Origin: an uncultured Sedimentitalea sp.
GTDB taxonomy: Bacteria > Pseudomonadota > Alphaproteobacteria > Rhodobacterales > Rhodobacteraceae
Direction of reading: 5' to 3'
Assembly (NCBI GenBank): GCA_947504115.1
Contig: CANNGH010000003.1
Location: forward strand, 124,001-188,000
DNA length: 64,000 bases
The notes beneath the pieces are model-generated. The model saw only the letters and a program-made list of their open reading frames with translations. It was not told the origin of the DNA and ran no database searches. The translations under genes and the position numbers were made by a program. Positions 37,037 through 63,431 of this stretch are shown in pieces (the first letter of the stretch is position 1; every line of letters begins with the position of its first letter).

Positions 37037-37159
37037 TCCCGGACGCGGTTCGGGATCGCCCTCCACCAGCGCGTTGCGCCCGTGGGGGCATTTGCGCTTT
37101 GCCCGGCTGACTCCTACATCGGGGTCAGTCAAAACCAGTGACAGGGAGCCAGACGGCCC

Positions 37160-54760: not shown

Positions 54761-57700
54761 ACCCCCAGCACAAGAACCGCCGCGCCGAACGGGAACAGGA
54801 CCAGCCCCGCCAGCATCGGCGTCAGTCCCGGCACCGCCCAGCGCAACGCGGCGGGCAAGGCTCCGGTGGCCAGCGGCCAGAGCATCGTCGCCCCCAGCCA
54901 CGCCACCACCAGCGCCAGCGCCGCGCCGACAGCGCCGCGAATGGCCTTGCTGCGCAGGCCGCGGCGCAGGGCGGTCAAGGGCCGGACCAGATCGTTCTGC
55001 GCGGCAATCAGGGCGGGCACCAGAAGCAGCACCAACACCATGCCGAAGCCCAGCCCATAGACCAGCGTGATCACCGTGGGTTTCAGGAACTGCGCCTGCT
55101 GGCTTTGCTCGTAGAGCAGCGGCGTCAGCCCCAGAACCGTCGTCAGCGTGGTCAGCATCACCGGGCGCAGCCGGTCCGCCGCCGCATCCACGATGGACGG
55201 TATCAGCCCGCGCGTCGCGGCGTATTCGTCGATGGTGCTGACCAGAACGATGGAATCGTTGATGATGATCCCGGTCATGCCCAGAAGACCCACGACCGTG
55301 AACATGCTCAGCGGCACCTCCCACATGTAATGGCCCCAGATCGTGCCGATCAGGCCGAAGGGGATGATCGCCATCACCACCAGTGGCCGGGTCCAACTGG
55401 AAAACACCCAGGCCAGCACCAGATAGATGCCGGTCAGGCACAGGATCAGCCCGGTCAGCGCGTCGGCCAGAAAATCGCTCTCCTGCTCGCTCAGCCCCGC
55501 CAGCCGCCACTCCACCTGAAGCTCGGCGGCGATCTGCGGCAGGATCTCGCTCTCCAGCGCCTGCATGATCTCGGTGGCACGGGCGGGGTCGTCCTCGGAC
55601 AGGTCGCCGGTCACTGAAATCACCCGCAACCCGTTCTCGCGCTGCACCGTGGAGAACCCGGTGCGCCGCGCGACGCTGACGATATCGGCCAGCGGCACAT
55701 AGGCCCCCGAGGCCGCGCGCAGATAGGTGCGGTCGAGGAAATCCGCCGTCTGTTCATTTTCGGGCAGTTCCACGCGGATCGCGGCGCTGCGCCGCCCGGC
55801 GGGATAGGTCGCGGCCTCGATCCCGTTCAGCCGCGCGCGCAACACGCGGGACAGGCCGTCCATGTCGAAACCCAGCGCCTGCCCCTGCGGCGTCAGATCA
55901 AGGATCAGTTCCTCCTTGTCATAGGGCAGATCGTCCTTCAGCCCCGAGACCTCGGGATAGCGCATCAAGGTGGTTTGCAATTCCAGGCTGGCACGTTTCA
56001 GCGTGTCCACATCCGCGCCATAGAACTGCACATCCAGCGCATCGCCGCCCGGACCGGTGCGCCAGCCGCGAAAGCTGACCGTCTCGGCCATGGGATGCTG
56101 GCGCACGCGGTCCTGCAATTCGCCCACGAAGGCGAAACTGGAATAGGGGCGCAGATCGGCGTCGATCAGTTCGATGTTGATGCCGCCCAGCAGATCGGCA
56201 TCCTTGTTCTCGGCGCCCGACAGGCCCCAGCCGGCATTGCCGCCGATCTGCGCCATCACGTAATCCAGCGGGTTGGTGCCATGGCGGGCCTCGTATTCCG
56301 CGCCCAGTTCCTCGGTCGCGCGCTGCATCTCCTGCATCATCGCGAGGCTGTCGGCGCGGGTGGCGCCCTCGACCATCGCGAAATCGCCGGTGACCGAGCC
56401 ACGCTCGGGCGAGTCGAAGAACCGCCATTGCACCTGCCCCGAGATCAGCAACGCGATCTGGCTGGCCAGCACCAGAACGATAGCCCCCATGACGACGTAA
56501 CGGGCCCGCACCACCCAAGCCATCAGCGGGCGGAACAGCGTGTCGCGCACCCAGCGAAAGCCGCGATTGACCTGCCGGTTGGGCCAGTCATACCAATGTT
56601 CCCGTGCCGAATGGGCGATGGCATGGCGCAGGTGGTTGGGCAGGATCAGGAAACATTCCACCAGCGAGGCCAGCAGCACCGTGATCACCGTGAAGGGCAC
56701 ATCGGCGATCATGTCGCCGAACCGCCCGCCCACTGCCGTCAGCGCGAAAAACGCCAGCACCGTGGTCAGCGTGGCGGCAAAGACCGGCATCGCCATGCGC
56801 CGTGCAGCGTTCTCGGCGGCGATTGTCGGGCTTTCACCCAGACGGCGGGCGCGGAAATCGGCGTGTTCGCCGACCACAATGGCATCGTCCACCACGATGC
56901 CCAGCGTGATGATCAGCCCGAACAGCGAGATCATGTTGAAGGTCAGCCCGCCCGCATACATCAGCGCGATGGCGGCAAACATCGCCGCCGGTATCCCCAT
57001 CGCCACCCAGAAGGCGATGCGCGCGTTCAGGAACAGGAACAGCAGGACAAGCACGAGGCCCAGCCCCATCAGCCCGTTATCGACAAGGATTTCCAGCCGC
57101 CCCGAGATCATCTCGGCCCGTGTGCGGATCAGTTCCACCGTCACACCCTGCGGCAGGCTGGCCTGCAATTCGGCGGCGACCTTTTCCACCGTTTTCTGGA
57201 TCGCGATGGCGTCGCCCGCATCCGACCGGTCCACCCGTATGGCCATGGCCGGATCGCCGCCGACGTAATAGGCGCGCTCGCGATCCACCCCTTCGACGCG
57301 CACCCGCGCCACGTCGCCGATGGTCAGGTTCGAGCCATCGGGATTGCTGCGCAAGACGATGGACGCGATGGCGGCGGGCGTGCGTTTCTCGGTGCCGGTG
57401 CGCACGCGGGCATTGGCGCCGCTCACGTCGCCCGCCGGATCGGCATCGACCTCGGCCCGGATCGCGGCGGCGATCTCGGTCATGGTGACCTCATGCGCCA
57501 TCAGCTTGACCGTCGGCACCTCGACCACGGTTTCGGGCGCGGCCAGCCCCTGAATGGTGGTGCGCGTGACCCCGGCGGCGAACAGCCGCGTCACCAGTTC
57601 GTCGGCGAACTGGCCCAGTTGCAGCGGCGCGACCGGCCCGGTGATGACCACATCGGTCACGCGATCACGCCAGTTGGCGCGGCGCACCGAGGGTTCCTCG

Positions 57701-58089
57701 GCCTCGTCGGGCAGTTCGGTGACCGCGTCGATGGCTGCCTGCACCTCGTCCGTGGCGCGGGCCATGTCCCAACCCGGTTCGAAATCCAGCGATATGCTGG
57801 CCATACCCTCGCGTGCGGTGGCGCGGGTTTCCTCGACCCCGTCCACCGCCTGAAGCGTCGGTTCCAGCACCTGCACGATGGCGCTGTCGACATCCTCGGG
57901 GCCGGCGCCCTCCCAGATCACGGTGACGTTCACGCTGTCGACGATCACGTCGGGAAAGAACTGCGCCCGCATGTTCGGAATCGCCGCCGCGCCGAGGGCC
58001 AGCATCAGCACCAGCAGCAGGTTGGCGGCGGTGCGGTGGCGCGTGAAATAGGACAGCAGCCCTCCGGCGCGGTCGGGAATCTCGCGCAT
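54718..58089 (-). CDS. efflux RND transporter permease subunit
   Basis: 1123 aa; [54 protein letters not shown]... AcrB/CusA-type. Confidence 0.95.
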
Positions 58090-58093
58090 GGCC

Positions 58094-59551
58094 CTAGCCC
58101 CCGCGCCGGTTTTCGATGCGCCGGACCAGCGCGACCGGCACGCGCGCCGCGTCGAGCTGCGCCAGAAGCCGCGCCTTGGCGTCGTCCTGCATCGCCGGAT
58201 CGCCCTGCACCAGCGCCACCAGTTCGGCGCGCCGGTCCTCGGTCAGTTCCAGCATCGCCTGTTCGCCACCCAATGCAGCCTCGTCGCGCAGCGGGCGCAC
58301 GCGGATGCCCTCGCCCAGCAGCGGCGTGCGCCCGATCACCACCTCCTGGCCGGCCAGACCCGGCCCGGCCAGCAATACCTCGTCGCCCTGCCGGCGCAGC
58401 AGCGTGACCTCAAGCGCGCGCAGACGATCCTCGCCCGCCAGCACCAGCACCGTGCCGCTGGCCGCGTCATAGGAGGACGCGGGCAGGCGCGCGACATTGT
58501 CCAGCGGCGGTTCCTCGACCGCGACGGTGACGAAATCGCCGGGCTTGAAGCCGCGCGCATCCTCCAGCCGCGCGAATATCAGCCGCCCCGACTGCCCCTC
58601 GCCGGTGGCGGCGCTGGCGCGGCTGATCGTGCCGGTCGCGGTCAGTTCGGCGCCCGCGGCGTCCAGCGTGATCGTCACCGGGGCAGCAATCAACCGCCCG
58701 GAATCGTCCAGCAGCCGCGCATATTGCGCCGTCGAGACCCGAAACGCGACCTCGAGCGCGTCCGGATCGATCAGCATCGCCAATTGTTCGTTGGGCGACA
58801 CCAGCCGCCCCTCGACCAGCCGCACCTCGGACAGGGTGCCGTCGAACCCGGCGGTCAGCGTGGTTTCCTCCAGTTGGCGCCGCGCCTCGTCCAGCGCGAT
58901 GCGCGCGCGCGCAAGCCGGGTTTCCGCCTGATCCACCCGCGCCTCGGCCTGCGCCACCGCCTGACGCCGCGACAGCACCGCCTGACGCGCTGCCGAGGCC
59001 GCCAGATCGGCGGATTCCACCAGCGCCGCGCTGCCGACGCCGCGTTCCTGCAGATCGGCCTGCCGCGCCGCCGCACGCGCCTGAAGCTCGGCCTGATCCT
59101 CTGCCGCCGCCAGTTCGTCGCGCGCCAGTTCCAGCCCGCGCTCGGCATCGCGCGCCTCGAACCCGGCATCCATCAGATCGCTTTCGGCCCGATCCAGCGC
59201 GGATTGCATGTCGGCGGGATCGATGCGCAGAAGCACCTGCCCCTCGCGCACCGCGCCGCCTTCCTCGAAGGCGTCGGCCAGTTCGATCACCCGCCCGCCC
59301 ACCGCAGCGCGCAATTCCAGCGTGCGGCGGCTTTGCACCGCACCATAGGCCTGCAAGATCGGCGTGACCCTGTCCAGCGTGGCGGTTTGCAGATTGACGG
59401 CAAAGACCCGTTCGCGCGCCGGTGGTGTCTGCGGTTCGGCACCCAGCCGGGTCTGGATCGCCGACATCACCAATTGCCCGGCATAGACCAGCAGCGCCAG
59501 CGTCAGCCCCGCCAGAAAGACGCCGAACAGAGATTGCCTCAGAAATCGCAT
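58094..59551 (-). CDS. efflux RND transporter periplasmic adaptor subunit
   Basis: MRFLRQSLFGVFLAGLTLALLVYAGQL...AVGGRVIELADAFEEGGAVREGQVLLRIDPADMQSALDRAESDL...AGFDGTLSEVRLVEGRLVSPNEQL. Confidence 0.92.
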   Translation of the reverse strand: MRFLRQSLFGVFLAGLTLALLVYAGQLVMSAIQTRLGAEPQTPPARERVFAVNLQTATLDRVTPILQAYGAVQSRRTLELRAAVGGRVIELADAFEEGGAVREGQVLLRIDPADMQSALDRAESDLMDAGFEARDAERGLELARDELAAAEDQAELQARAAARQADLQERGVGSAALVESADLAASAARQAVLSRRQAVAQAEARVDQAETRLARARIALDEARRQLEETTLTAGFDGTLSEVRLVEGRLVSPNEQLAMLIDPDALEVAFRVSTAQYARLLDDSGRLIAAPVTITLDAAGAELTATGTISRASAATGEGQSGRLIFARLEDARGFKPGDFVTVAVEEPPLDNVARLPASSYDAASGTVLVLAGEDRLRALEVTLLRRQGDEVLLAGPGLAGQEVVIGRTPLLGEGIRVRPLRDEAALGGEQAMLELTEDRRAELVALVQGDPAMQDDAKARLLAQLDAARVPVALVRRIENRRGG

Positions 59552-59649
59552 GCACAAATCGCCTTTGAGCCGCAGCAACGCGGCCGATGAAACAGCCTAA
59601 CGCGGCAAGGCGAAATGCCAAACCACAAAGGTGTCAACGCAGGCGCGGC

Positions 59650-60192
59650 CTATTTCCGTCGCAGTTTTTCATCCAGACGCGGCATTATTTCAACGAAATT
59701 GCAGGGCATGTGCCGATAATCCAGCTGCAGCGAGAAAATCCCCTCCCATGCGTCCTTGCAGGCGCCGGGGCTGCCGGGCAGCGCGAACAGATAGGTGCCG
59801 CCCGCGACCCCGCCGGTTGCGCGGCTTTGAATGGCGCTGGTGCCGATCTTTTCCATGGAAATCATGGTGAAGGCTGTGCCGAACGCGTCGATTTCCTTTT
59901 CATAGACATCGCGATGCGCCTCGACCGTTATATCGCGCCCGGTCAGCCCGGTGCCCCCCGTGGAGATCACCGCATCGACGTTCTCGTCGGCGATCCATTC
60001 GCGCAGTTGCGCGGCGATCTGGTCGCGCTCGTCGGGGAGTATCTTGCGATCCGCCAGAATGTGCCCTGCCGCCGTCAGCCGGTCGACCAGCACCTGCCCC
60101 GAGCGGTCCTGCTCCAGCGAGCGGCTGTCGGACACCGTCAGGATGGCGATGCGCACGGGAATGAAGTCCCGGCTTTCGTCGATACGCGACAT
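59650..60192 (-). CDS. moaB: molybdenum cofactor biosynthesis protein B
   Basis: RIAILTVSDSRSLEQDRSGQVLVDRLTAAGH...VDAVISTGGTGLTGRDITVEAHRDV. Confidence 0.93.
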   Translation of the reverse strand: MSRIDESRDFIPVRIAILTVSDSRSLEQDRSGQVLVDRLTAAGHILADRKILPDERDQIAAQLREWIADENVDAVISTGGTGLTGRDITVEAHRDVYEKEIDAFGTAFTMISMEKIGTSAIQSRATGGVAGGTYLFALPGSPGACKDAWEGIFSLQLDYRHMPCNFVEIMPRLDEKLRRK

Positions 60193-60195
60193 GGC

Positions 60196-60816
60196 TCAAG
60201 CCCTTTCCAGAATGGCCAGCCGAACGGCCAGCGCGGTGAAGATCGCGCCGCTGGCATAGCCCAGCCAGCGCGTAAGGCGCGGATTGCCCACAAGGCGGCG
60301 GCGGGCGCGACCGGCAAATGCGCCGACCAGCCCGTTGATGACAAACCCGCCAAGCGACAGAACCGCGCCGAAGATCAGGAATTGCGCCCAGACCGGCCCG
60401 GCCTGCGGCGCGATGAATTGCGGGATGAAGGCCAGCACGAACAGGATGATCTTGGGGTTGGTCAGGTTCACCAGGAACCCGGTGCGAAACGAGCGCCGCG
60501 CGCCGGGATCGCTCGCTTGCTCCGCAACCTCGATCCCGCGAAACGCGCCCCAGGCCAGCCACAGCAGATAGGCCACGCCGATCCAGCGGATCGCGTCGAA
60601 CAGCCACGGCAAGGCCGCGACCAGCGCGCCAAGGCCCAGACCGGCCAGCACCACATGCGCCATCACCCCGGCGGACACGCCCGCACTGGCGGCCATCGCC
60701 GCGCGCGGTCCCGTGCGCAGGCCCTGGCCCAGACAGAACATCATGTCCGCCCCCGGCGTCAGGTTCATCGCCAGTGCCGCCGGAACAAAGGCCAGCAGGA
60801 TCAGCGGATCAACCAT
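60196..60816 (-). CDS. LysE family translocator
   Basis: MNLTPGADMMFCLGQGLRTGPRAAMAASAGVSAGVMAHVVLAGLGLGALV...GFLVNLTNPKIILFVLAFIPQF. Confidence 0.93.
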   Translation of the reverse strand: MVDPLILLAFVPAALAMNLTPGADMMFCLGQGLRTGPRAAMAASAGVSAGVMAHVVLAGLGLGALVAALPWLFDAIRWIGVAYLLWLAWGAFRGIEVAEQASDPGARRSFRTGFLVNLTNPKIILFVLAFIPQFIAPQAGPVWAQFLIFGAVLSLGGFVINGLVGAFAGRARRRLVGNPRLTRWLGYASGAIFTALAVRLAILERA

Positions 60817-61576
60817 CGCGCAACCGCGCCTGCAAGGCCAGCAAATCCGCCCATGTCTCGCGCTTGGCGACGGGATTGCGGAACAGATAGGCCGGGTGCA
60901 GCATCGGCAGCACCGGACGGCCCAGCGCCTCCGCCCATTGCCCGCGCAACCGCGTGATACCGGTCTTGCCCAGCAGCGCCTGCGTGCTGGTGTTGCCCAT
61001 GGCCACGATCACCTCGGGCGCGATCAGTTCGATATGACGGGTGACAAAGGGCAGCATCATCGCGATTTCCTCGCCCGTCGGCGTGCGGTTCTGCGGTGGT
61101 CGCCAGGGCATCACGTTGGTGATATAGACGTTGCTTTCGCGCGACAGCCCGATTTCGGCCAACATCCGGTCAAGGAACTGCCCCGCCTGCCCGACGAAGG
61201 GGCGGCCTGCGCGGTCCTCCTCGCGGCCCGGCGCCTCGCCCACGATCATCACCCGCGCGGACGTGGTGCCATCGGCAAAGACCAGATTACGCGCGCCCTT
61301 CTTCAACTCGCACCCGTCAAAGGCCGCCAGCGCCGCGCGCAACGCGTCCAGCGTGTCGGCGGCTTGCGCGACGTGTTGCGCGGTGTCCTCCGGTGTGGCG
61401 GCGGGCGCGATCACCGGCGCGGCCGGGGTGGCTGGCTTCGCGCGTTTGCCCCACGGATTGGCATCGGGCAGCGCATAGCGGTCCACCGGCGCATCGCCGA
61501 TGGGATCTATCGCGCCCATGTCGAACTGCCATTCCAGCAGCGCGCGCGCCATATGGGGGTGAAGGTCCGATTCCAT
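60809..61576 (-). CDS. uracil-DNA glycosylase, type 4 family
   Basis: VMIVGEAPGREEDRAGRPFVGQAGQFLDRMLAEIGLSRESNVYITNVMPWRPPQNRTPTGEE...MLHPAYLFRNPVAKRETWADL. Confidence 0.93.
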   Translation of the reverse strand: MESDLHPHMARALLEWQFDMGAIDPIGDAPVDRYALPDANPWGKRAKPATPAAPVIAPAATPEDTAQHVAQAADTLDALRAALAAFDGCELKKGARNLVFADGTTSARVMIVGEAPGREEDRAGRPFVGQAGQFLDRMLAEIGLSRESNVYITNVMPWRPPQNRTPTGEEIAMMLPFVTRHIELIAPEVIVAMGNTSTQALLGKTGITRLRGQWAEALGRPVLPMLHPAYLFRNPVAKRETWADLLALQARLRDG

Positions 61577-61682
61577 TGCGCCCATACTACCCGTCCCGGC
61601 GCCAAGCGAAAGCCTTGCCAGCCGCATCAAAACGCTTTGGCCGCGCCGCGCGCCCCGCTAGAGTGAAGCCAAAGGAATCCCG

Positions 61683-62381
61683 ATGCGCCCCCTCCTGCAC
61701 CTGCTGGTCCTGTGCCTGATCGCCCTGTCGCCCGCCCCCTCTGCCGCGCAATCGCTGCTGGATTCGCCGGGGTTTCTCAGGGATTGCCCGACCGGCAGCA
61801 CCCGTTGCGGGGTAAGCAAATGCTGCCCGCTGGGCGCGCGCTGTGCCTTTGACGGCAATTGCATCCCGCTCGGGCACAGTTATTGCGGCGGCGGACGCAG
61901 TTGCCCGCCGGGCTGGTTGTGCCGCCAGAACGGCACCGGTTGCGAACCGCCCGGTGCCAGCAAATGCGCGCTGGGGCAGGTCTGCCCGGCCGGCACCACC
62001 TGCGGCGCGGCGGGCAATTGCGTGGCGCAAGGGCGGATCGATTGCGGGCTGGGGCGCACCTGTCCCGCGGGCACGCAGTGCCTGTCCACGGGCGGCTGTT
62101 CGTCGCTCGGGGCGAAGAAATGCGATACCGGCTCGGTTTGCGATGCCGGTTTCAAATGCTCGCTGATCCGGGGATGCGTGCCGCAGAACGCCACCGATTG
62201 CGGCAAGGGACGCTGGTGTTTTCCGGGCAGCCTGTGCCTTGAGGGCGGGGGCTGCTCGGAGGCGGGCGCGACGCGCTGCGCGGGAGGTGCGATCTGCGCG
62301 CCGGGAACCACCTGCACGCCCGATGGCGATTGCAAGCCGACCAAGCCGAAGGTACGCCCGAAAGCGCGACCCGCGCGGTAG
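61683..62381 (+). CDS. secreted cysteine-rich repeat protein
   Basis: Sec signal MRPLLHLLVLCLIALSPAPSAAQ; seven C-x5-C-x5-C-x5-C units with x7 linkers; SD AAAGGA upstream of ATG. Confidence 0.75.
   Translation: MRPLLHLLVLCLIALSPAPSAAQSLLDSPGFLRDCPTGSTRCGVSKCCPLGARCAFDGNCIPLGHSYCGGGRSCPPGWLCRQNGTGCEPPGASKCALGQVCPAGTTCGAAGNCVAQGRIDCGLGRTCPAGTQCLSTGGCSSLGAKKCDTGSVCDAGFKCSLIRGCVPQNATDCGKGRWCFPGSLCLEGGGCSEAGATRCAGGAICAPGTTCTPDGDCKPTKPKVRPKARPAR
61806..62333 (+). repeat. seven tandem protein-level repeats of 26 aa (78 bp)
   Basis: e.g. CALGQVCPAGTTCGAAGNCVAQGRID / CGLGRTCPAGTQCLSTGGCSSLGAKK / CDTGSVCDAGFKCSLIRGCVPQNATD / CGKGRWCFPGSLCLEGGGCSEAGATR / CAGGAICAPGTTCTPDGDC. Confidence 0.85.
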
Positions 62382-62483: not shown

Positions 62484-63431
62484 ATGACGTTCGCCCATCG
62501 CCATCTTCTGGGAATCGAGCACCTCGCCCCCCATGACATCACGGCGATCCTCGATCTGGCGGAATCCTATGTCGAAATGAACCGCCAGCCTGCGAAACAT
62601 TCTGACGTGCTGGCGGGGCTGACCCAGATCAACATGTTTTTCGAGAACTCGACCCGCACGCAGGCCAGTTTCGAACTGGCGGGGCTGCGGCTGGGCGCGG
62701 ATGTGATGAACATGGCGATGCAGGCCAGCAGCGTGAAAAAGGGCGAAACCCTGATCGACACGGCGCTGACGCTGAACGCCATGCGCCCCGACCTCCTGGT
62801 GGTGCGCCACCCGCAATCGGGCGCGGTGGACCTGCTGGCGCAAAAGGTCAATTGCGCGGTGCTGAACGCCGGTGACGGGCGCCACGAACACCCCACGCAG
62901 GCGCTGCTGGATGCGCTGACGATAAGGCGCGCCAAGGGGCGGCTGCACCGCCTGTCGGTGGCGATCTGCGGCGACATCGCCCATAGCCGGGTGGCGCGTT
63001 CCAACATCCTGCTGCTGGGCAAGATGGAAAATCGCATCCGCCTGATCGGCCCGCCGACCCTGATGCCCGCCGGGATCGCCGAATTCGGGGTCGAGGTCTA
63101 CGAGGACATGGCCGAGGGTCTGGCCGATGTCGATGTGGTGATGATGCTGCGCCTGCAAAAGGAACGCATGGATGGCGGCTTCATCCCGTCCGAGCGCGAA
63201 TATTACCACCGCTACGGGCTGGACGCGGACAAGCTGGCGCTGGCGAAACCCGACGCCATCATCATGCATCCCGGCCCGATGAACCGCGGCGTCGAGATCG
63301 ACGGCACGCTGGCCGATGACATCAACCGCAGCGTGATCCAGGATCAGGTGGAAATGGGCGTGGCGGTGCGCATGGCCGCAATGGAACTGCTGGCGCGCAA
63401 CCTGCGTTCGGATCAGGAGGGGGCAGCATGA
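62484..63431 (+). CDS. pyrB: aspartate carbamoyltransferase catalytic subunit
   Basis: [26 protein letters not shown]...[22 protein letters not shown]...[12 protein letters not shown]. Confidence 0.97.

Follow-up and report, generated by a model that had tools for sequence, protein, structure and literature searches.

An exported protein of tandem four-cysteine units behind a six-cysteine cap, encoded between udg and pyrB

The protein encoded by the open reading frame at 61683-62381 (+), which starts with ATG and codes for 232 residues, consists of one six-cysteine cap and six four-cysteine units (C-x5-C-x5-C-x5-C) joined by x7 linkers. Positions refer to the window, the whole stretch of 64,000 nucleotides that was analysed. 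The best reading of this protein, with a probability of roughly 0.5, is an exported and oxidised stack of hairpins that forms a stalk and carries a candidate binding patch at units 5-6. In shape, the window protein is probably a rod stapled by disulfides, with a single conserved putative recognition patch. Its spacing, its cap and its genomic site are undescribed in the libraries searched, and no published account of them was found in the open-access literature; disulfide-rich tandem repeats themselves are already known.

The protein contains 31 cysteines among its 232 residues, 30 of which remain in the mature form after the Sec-type signal. The signal combines a hydrophobic stretch (KD 3.03) from residue 4 with an AxA site at 22. 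By hydropathy, an N-terminal hydrophobic segment was found in 28/28 family members examined and a later hydrophobic segment in none; the Sec signal proposed in the initial annotation is upheld. That annotation also described seven C-x5-C-x5-C-x5-C units with x7 joins. The spacing is as described, but C35 was overlooked, and the first 'unit' is a six-cysteine cap (C35 x6 C42 x4 C47 C48 x5 C54 x5 C60, followed by x7 to C68), in which the six cysteines, D57 and G58 are invariant among 19 aligned caps. The vicinal CC of the first unit and the single x6 deviation of unit 2 were both correctly recognized in the register (C68 x5 C74 x5 C80 x6 C87, then x7 to C95). Units 3-7 are all 5-5-5 and are separated by x7. 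The basic, proline-rich tail is likewise present in the window protein, but the Ruegeria-like members lack it and it is no family feature. When the mature sequence was shuffled 20,000 times, the five strict units observed were never reached: the maximum was three (once), and 99.3% of shuffles contained none. No strict unit was found in the other frames of the window, and promoter and terminator scans found nothing. The features are collected in Table 1.

Table 1. Parts of the repeat protein and its two neighbours, with positions in the window; identities are means over non-cysteine positions among divergent homologues.
Feature	Position	Strand	Basis and remarks
udg (uracil-DNA-glycosylase-like), divergent neighbour, left border	60809..61630	-	name from sequence inspection; adjoins the repeat gene in family loci
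Sec-type signal peptide, residues 1-22, proposed cleavage after S-A-A, no lipobox	61683..61748	+	inspection and hydropathy
Six-cysteine cap, C35-C60 (C-x6-C-x4-CC-x5-C-x5-C)	61785..61862	+	cysteine register
Unit 2, C68-C87 (C-x5-C-x5-C-x6-C), opens CGGGRSC	61884..61943	+	register
Unit 3, C95-C113	61965..62021	+	register; missing from L034
Unit 4, C121-C139	62043..62099	+	register; only the last two cysteines left in L025, L026, L027 and L034
Unit 5, C147-C165, CDTGSVCDAGFKCSLIRGC	62121..62177	+	best conserved unit, identity 0.71
Linker 6, VPQNATD	62178..62198	+	identity 0.77; top-conserved linker together with linker 7
Unit 6, C173-C191, CGKGRWCFPGSLCLEGGGC	62199..62255	+	identity 0.60
Unit 7, C199-C217	62277..62333	+	register; missing in the Ruegeria-like branch
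Basic, proline-rich tail, residues 218-232	62334..62378	+	sequence; not conserved across the family
pyrB (aspartate carbamoyltransferase), downstream neighbour, right border	62484..63431	+	name from sequence inspection

Among the homologues, all 141/141 units have x5 between C2 and C3, the C1-C2 and C3-C4 loops are both 5 (4-6), and the linkers range from 7 to 20. Because loop lengths within a unit are held close to 5 while linker lengths vary, the module is the four-cysteine unit, and the linker is unconstrained. The initial annotation had made its reading depend on homologues conserving both the number and the spacing of the cysteines; the spacing is conserved, but a protein may have as few as 2 four-cysteine units or at least 20. 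The complete members have 10, 14, 20, 24, 26, 30 or 32 mature cysteines, all even numbers (in L028 one early cysteine lies before the counting limit, and the count rises from 29 to 30 when it is included). Cysteines are also lost and gained in pairs: units 3 and 7 are dropped whole, unit 4 is halved in four members, and L021 has an extra C-terminal pair. Since the even and paired cysteines are accompanied by an export signal wherever members were examined for one, a thiolate metal cluster is much less probable than oxidised disulfides.

Purifying selection acts on the gene, with dN/dS values of 0.045-0.22 in 11 pairs. Between proteins, units at the same position share 0.45-0.70 of their non-cysteine residues, compared with 0.15-0.40 for units at differing positions. 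Because same-position units are more alike, the units were distinct before the carriers diverged, and recent slippage is therefore disfavoured in the standard members. These results agree with the earlier suggestion that the fixed spacing reflects selection rather than recent slippage. Conservation among divergent homologues peaks at unit 5 and at linkers 6 and 7, the latter two with equal identity (0.77 each), and unit 4 equals unit 6 (0.60). The shortest intact members (L031 and L032) are without the cap and the first units and have kept the counterparts of units 5 and 6.

With the window protein as query, 7/101 genomes of the same family were found to be carriers, and with the alignment as query 19/397. 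A draw at the level of the order gave 14 matching genomes of 197, nine of them new. Relatives identified by name include Pontibaca salina and a member of Ruegeria. One same-genus genome (G001) encodes a protein (L002) with exactly the sequence of the P. salina protein (L013), and a Pontibaca-like bacterium of the Roseobacteraceae is therefore the probable source of the window. A second match in the uncultured bacterium's own genome (G000:C6) was dismissed as chance, its 518-residue frame being without the repeat, and the weak matches at class and phylum level (L058, L059, L066-L069) held no convincing repeat array. In Pfam, the window protein matched only Hyd_WA at E<=10 (E 2.3), and none of 16 aligned homologues had a match at E<=1; the EGF models matched neither the window protein nor these homologues. 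Thus, the view of the initial annotation that the spacing fits no familiar domain and is not EGF was borne out in Pfam, and the match to a Pfam repeat family that it had named as contrary evidence did not appear in the 16 homologues even at E=1. In NCBIfam, the window protein had no meaningful match, and one of the 16 members (L014) gave a subthreshold match to TIGR04201 (15.3 bits against a cut-off of 25). Across whole genomes, the best TIGR04201 match reached 21.2 bits and none exceeded the cut-off of 25. The plasmid and phage collections gave no protein match, and a mobile-element origin is therefore not supported.

When built with 16 sequences, an AlphaFold model, which had been proposed as a check, had a mean pLDDT of 86, with 120 residues at 90 or above, and displayed short strands around C1/C2 and C3/C4, but the pTM was 0.49 and the packing of the units was not fixed; the single-sequence model had a pLDDT of 74. 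Each unit reads as two short hairpins in this prediction, in which the hairpins are locally confident but the unit-unit packing is not. With moderate confidence, the unit can be pictured as a stack of two short beta-hairpins in which one disulfide joins C1 to C3 and another C2 to C4, the arrangement of scytovirin and of the N-terminal half-module of granulin. The cap would add a third bond in the manner of mini-granulin (I-III, II-V and IV-VI) and close the N-terminal end, and the string of units would form an elongated stalk. The halved unit 4, in which C3 and C4 are left, is awkward for C1-C3/C2-C4 pairing unless C3 then pairs with C4. AlphaFold has also been found to get the disulfide connectivity of a mini-granulin peptide wrong (PMC11035057).

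All structural matches were non-significant (E 0.4-4.8 for PDB sequence comparisons and 1.2 for the Foldseek match to granulin), and no match in the PDB structure search passed E 0.001. In Foldseek, zebrafish granulin AaE aligned with the 16-sequence model at 43% identity over 53 columns (TMt 0.46, E 1.2, prob 0.54); its TMt was 0.29 with the single-sequence model. When profiles were compared with the PDB, the family alignment matched only scytovirin (E 1.5), the unit profile placed carp granulin-1 N-terminal fragments at the top (E 0.4 and 0.54), followed by P2X4 (1.2) and scytovirin (4.8), and the cap profile matched prokineticin alone (E 1.2). The PDB matches of the single-sequence model, which were mostly to LRP2/megalin and other large cysteine-rich receptors (TM <0.2, among the matches listed), and matches to adenovirus fibre in the viral library were rejected as composition-driven.

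The half-modules at the N-terminal end of granulins (paragranulin, mini-granulin fold) share with the units the C-x5-C-x5-C core and the CPxGxxC turn, and carp granulin-1 aligns over this stretch. Their stacked beta-hairpins agree in strand order with the predicted unit, and their six-cysteine C-C-CC-C-C framework resembles the cap. The known bonds of the half-module are I-III and II-V, plus IV-VI in the three-bond form (PMC7463432, PMC11035057). With a single cysteine in each turn the first two correspond to 1-3 and 2-4, and the framework of the cap would permit the three-bond form. In contrast, a granulin has 12 cysteines per module with CC pairs, whereas each unit here has four single cysteines; the twelve-cysteine framework with four CC pairs was not seen in the mature protein, which has one CC (in the cap), and the granulin model PF00396 matched neither the window protein nor the 16 homologues. 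The likeness to granulin, called vague in the initial annotation, is therefore closer than was claimed as regards the C-x5-C-x5-C core and the cap framework, but it was not significant in any search. Scytovirin (2JMV, 2QSK, 2QT4), a cyanobacterial lectin, has the exact C-x5-C-x5-C-x5-C spacing of the units in both of its domains, with bonds Cys20-Cys32 and Cys26-Cys38, which are 1-3 and 2-4 (PMC3407925). The granulin and scytovirin likenesses are leads, not membership.

The cysteine-rich repeat of myxobacterial TraA (TIGR04201) is likewise a short (about 20 residues) tandem cysteine repeat of secreted bacterial proteins. In TraA the repeats come after a PA14 domain, are accompanied by a MYXO-CTERM anchor and have only three invariant cysteines (PMC3325183). 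Here, all four cysteines define the unit and no receptor domain or anchor was identified; neither PA14 nor MYXO-CTERM was found in the Pfam and NCBIfam scans of the window protein. The TraA repeats have been proposed as a stalk (PMC3325183), which can do without its first repeats but not without the distal ones (PMC6372800). By analogy, the window protein might act through recognition rather than catalysis, the patch being formed by unit 5, linker 6 and unit 6, and the remaining units could be spacers of changeable number, like the partly dispensable TraA stalk repeats. Candidate partners would be an envelope component, a glycan or another cell. The cysteine repeats of ascidian rusticalin were also considered and set aside; these are secreted too, but their spacing is Cx6Cx6-7Cx8Cx7CC and they are fused to a peptidase domain (PMC6339383).

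Relatives of the gene occur in roughly 27 further genomes of the family and sit between a divergent udg and pyrB, with two exceptions (L023 and the remnant L033), in which udg is present and pyrB was not found within 1.5 kb on the other side. No operon partner or fused domain that would point to a function was found for the window protein. Among 30 non-carriers, 23 have an empty site in which 31-531 bp separate the neighbouring udg and pyrB and there is no repeat; for the remaining seven, no udg was found next to pyrB. One same-genus species (G002) lacks the gene and has an empty site of 93 bp. In a PyrB tree of 51 rows, carrier state needs 4 changes, compared with 17.3 when the labels are shuffled, and 23 of the carriers fall in one supported group that includes G002 as its only non-carrier; many forks of this tree are open and six sequences were left out (marker motif not read), so that the exact gains and losses are uncertain. 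The gene is carried by some marine bacteria of the Ruegeria/Pontibaca group and is mainly present in one clade, and a gain in one clade with later losses fits its history best.

A greatly expanded version with at least 20 units and an extra N-terminal region of about 115 residues was observed in G046, where it lies on contigs C6 (L006) and C74 (L009). At least 12 units stand beside udg on one contig and 8 beside pyrB on the other, and the two pieces are probably one gene that was split at the repeat by assembly. An 87-residue frame beside udg in G434 (L033) has two to three units like the C-terminal end of the G046 version and looks like a remnant or a truncated gene. Elsewhere in the window, the only Rfam match at the gathering score was the ffh sRNA (RF01793) at 37045-37096 (+), with 61.6 bits and E 2.5e-9. 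Three long open frames, 55975-58407 (+), 58088-59590 (+) and 59587-60957 (+), lie on the strand opposite likely genes (a pair for an RND-type transporter and the genes that follow); they are expected from the high G+C and were not taken as genes.

Several other explanations were weighed against the exported stalk. The metal-bound solenoid of the initial annotation, for example a periplasmic metallothionein with thiolate ligands, would account for the high cysteine content and its fixed spacing, but it is not sustained by the export signal and even mature cysteine number of every complete member or by the paired losses. The turns of the units are rich in glycine and proline, both of which are preferred there, and contain no conserved histidine, and the hairpin model also speaks against metal binding, which is very improbable. 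A multivalent lectin, in which each unit is a scytovirin-like sugar-binding module, draws on the identical x5/x5/x5 spacing of the two four-cysteine domains of scytovirin and on its place as the sole PDB profile match of the family alignment. However, that match has an E of just 1.5, and scytovirin was absent from the Foldseek results, among the matches listed. Scytovirin joins its two domains by an additional inter-domain bond and binds sugar through aromatic residues (PMC8004682); no counterpart of the inter-domain cysteines or of these aromatic residues was seen in the window protein. Where scytovirin has Phe before C4 (GFC in the alignment), glycine occupies this position in 47/83 units and no aromatic is among its seven commonest residues. 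A lectin of this kind is therefore considered unlikely.

The patchy presence and variable unit number would suit a secreted protein for competition, host interaction or inhibition, with the repeats as multiple inhibitory knots, and tandem arrays of small disulfide-rich scaffolds often have roles of this kind (SCREP survey, PMC6262176). Against this stand the purifying selection without a sign of an arms race, the fixed chromosomal site, the lack of matches in the plasmid and phage collections and the absence of an immunity-like neighbour, and such a role seems improbable. It is also rather unlikely that the protein is a nonessential spacer or surface decoration that has no specific partner and drifts in unit number. 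The range of 2 to at least 20 units, the absence of the gene in a same-genus species and the remnant in G434 would be expected of such a protein, but the low dN/dS (0.05-0.22), the orthology of the units by position and the conservation peak at units 5-6 would not.

The unit also occurs in other alphaproteobacterial families. In a second family (f66), 15/75 genomes match, and ten proteins (L103-L112, among the matches listed) have a common layout of four 4-Cys units and a C-x13-C pair. Together with L057, these represent a second undescribed family of exported proteins with a fixed 18-Cys layout, and some genomes have at least two loci. In a third family (f70), L065 has three units and a coiled-coil-like part, and L101 (genome G1350) is an exported protein with seven 4-Cys units, mostly 5-5-6 with x8 linkers, flanked by additional N- and C-terminal regions for which no Pfam family scores above its cut-off. 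The loops within the units of the f66 and f70 proteins are again 5 (4-6) and the linkers variable, which supports the unit boundaries.

The half-granulin-type module is known mainly from animals, plants and venoms. A wider proposal, which is speculative and somewhat doubtful at this stage, is that these proteins form a bacterial superfamily, so far undescribed, whose hairpin modules are of the half-granulin/scytovirin type and stand in tandem. It would extend across several alphaproteobacterial families in differing architectures, some with additional regions and some with none, and with unit numbers from 3 to at least 20. Its members would act as a disulfide-stapled recognition stalk with a conserved patch at units 5-6 and would be a bacterial counterpart of the animal granulin module, to which they might even be related.

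The cysteine register of this repeat module is unusually strict, and neither Pfam nor NCBIfam describes it. Among the homologues, units have been gained and lost in a natural series on which disulfide topology and minimal function can be tested, and the gene is cleanly present or absent at the udg-pyrB site, even between species within a genus. Should the half-granulin fold be confirmed, this would be a bacterial tandem array of the module, which would bear on the repeated origin of such folds.
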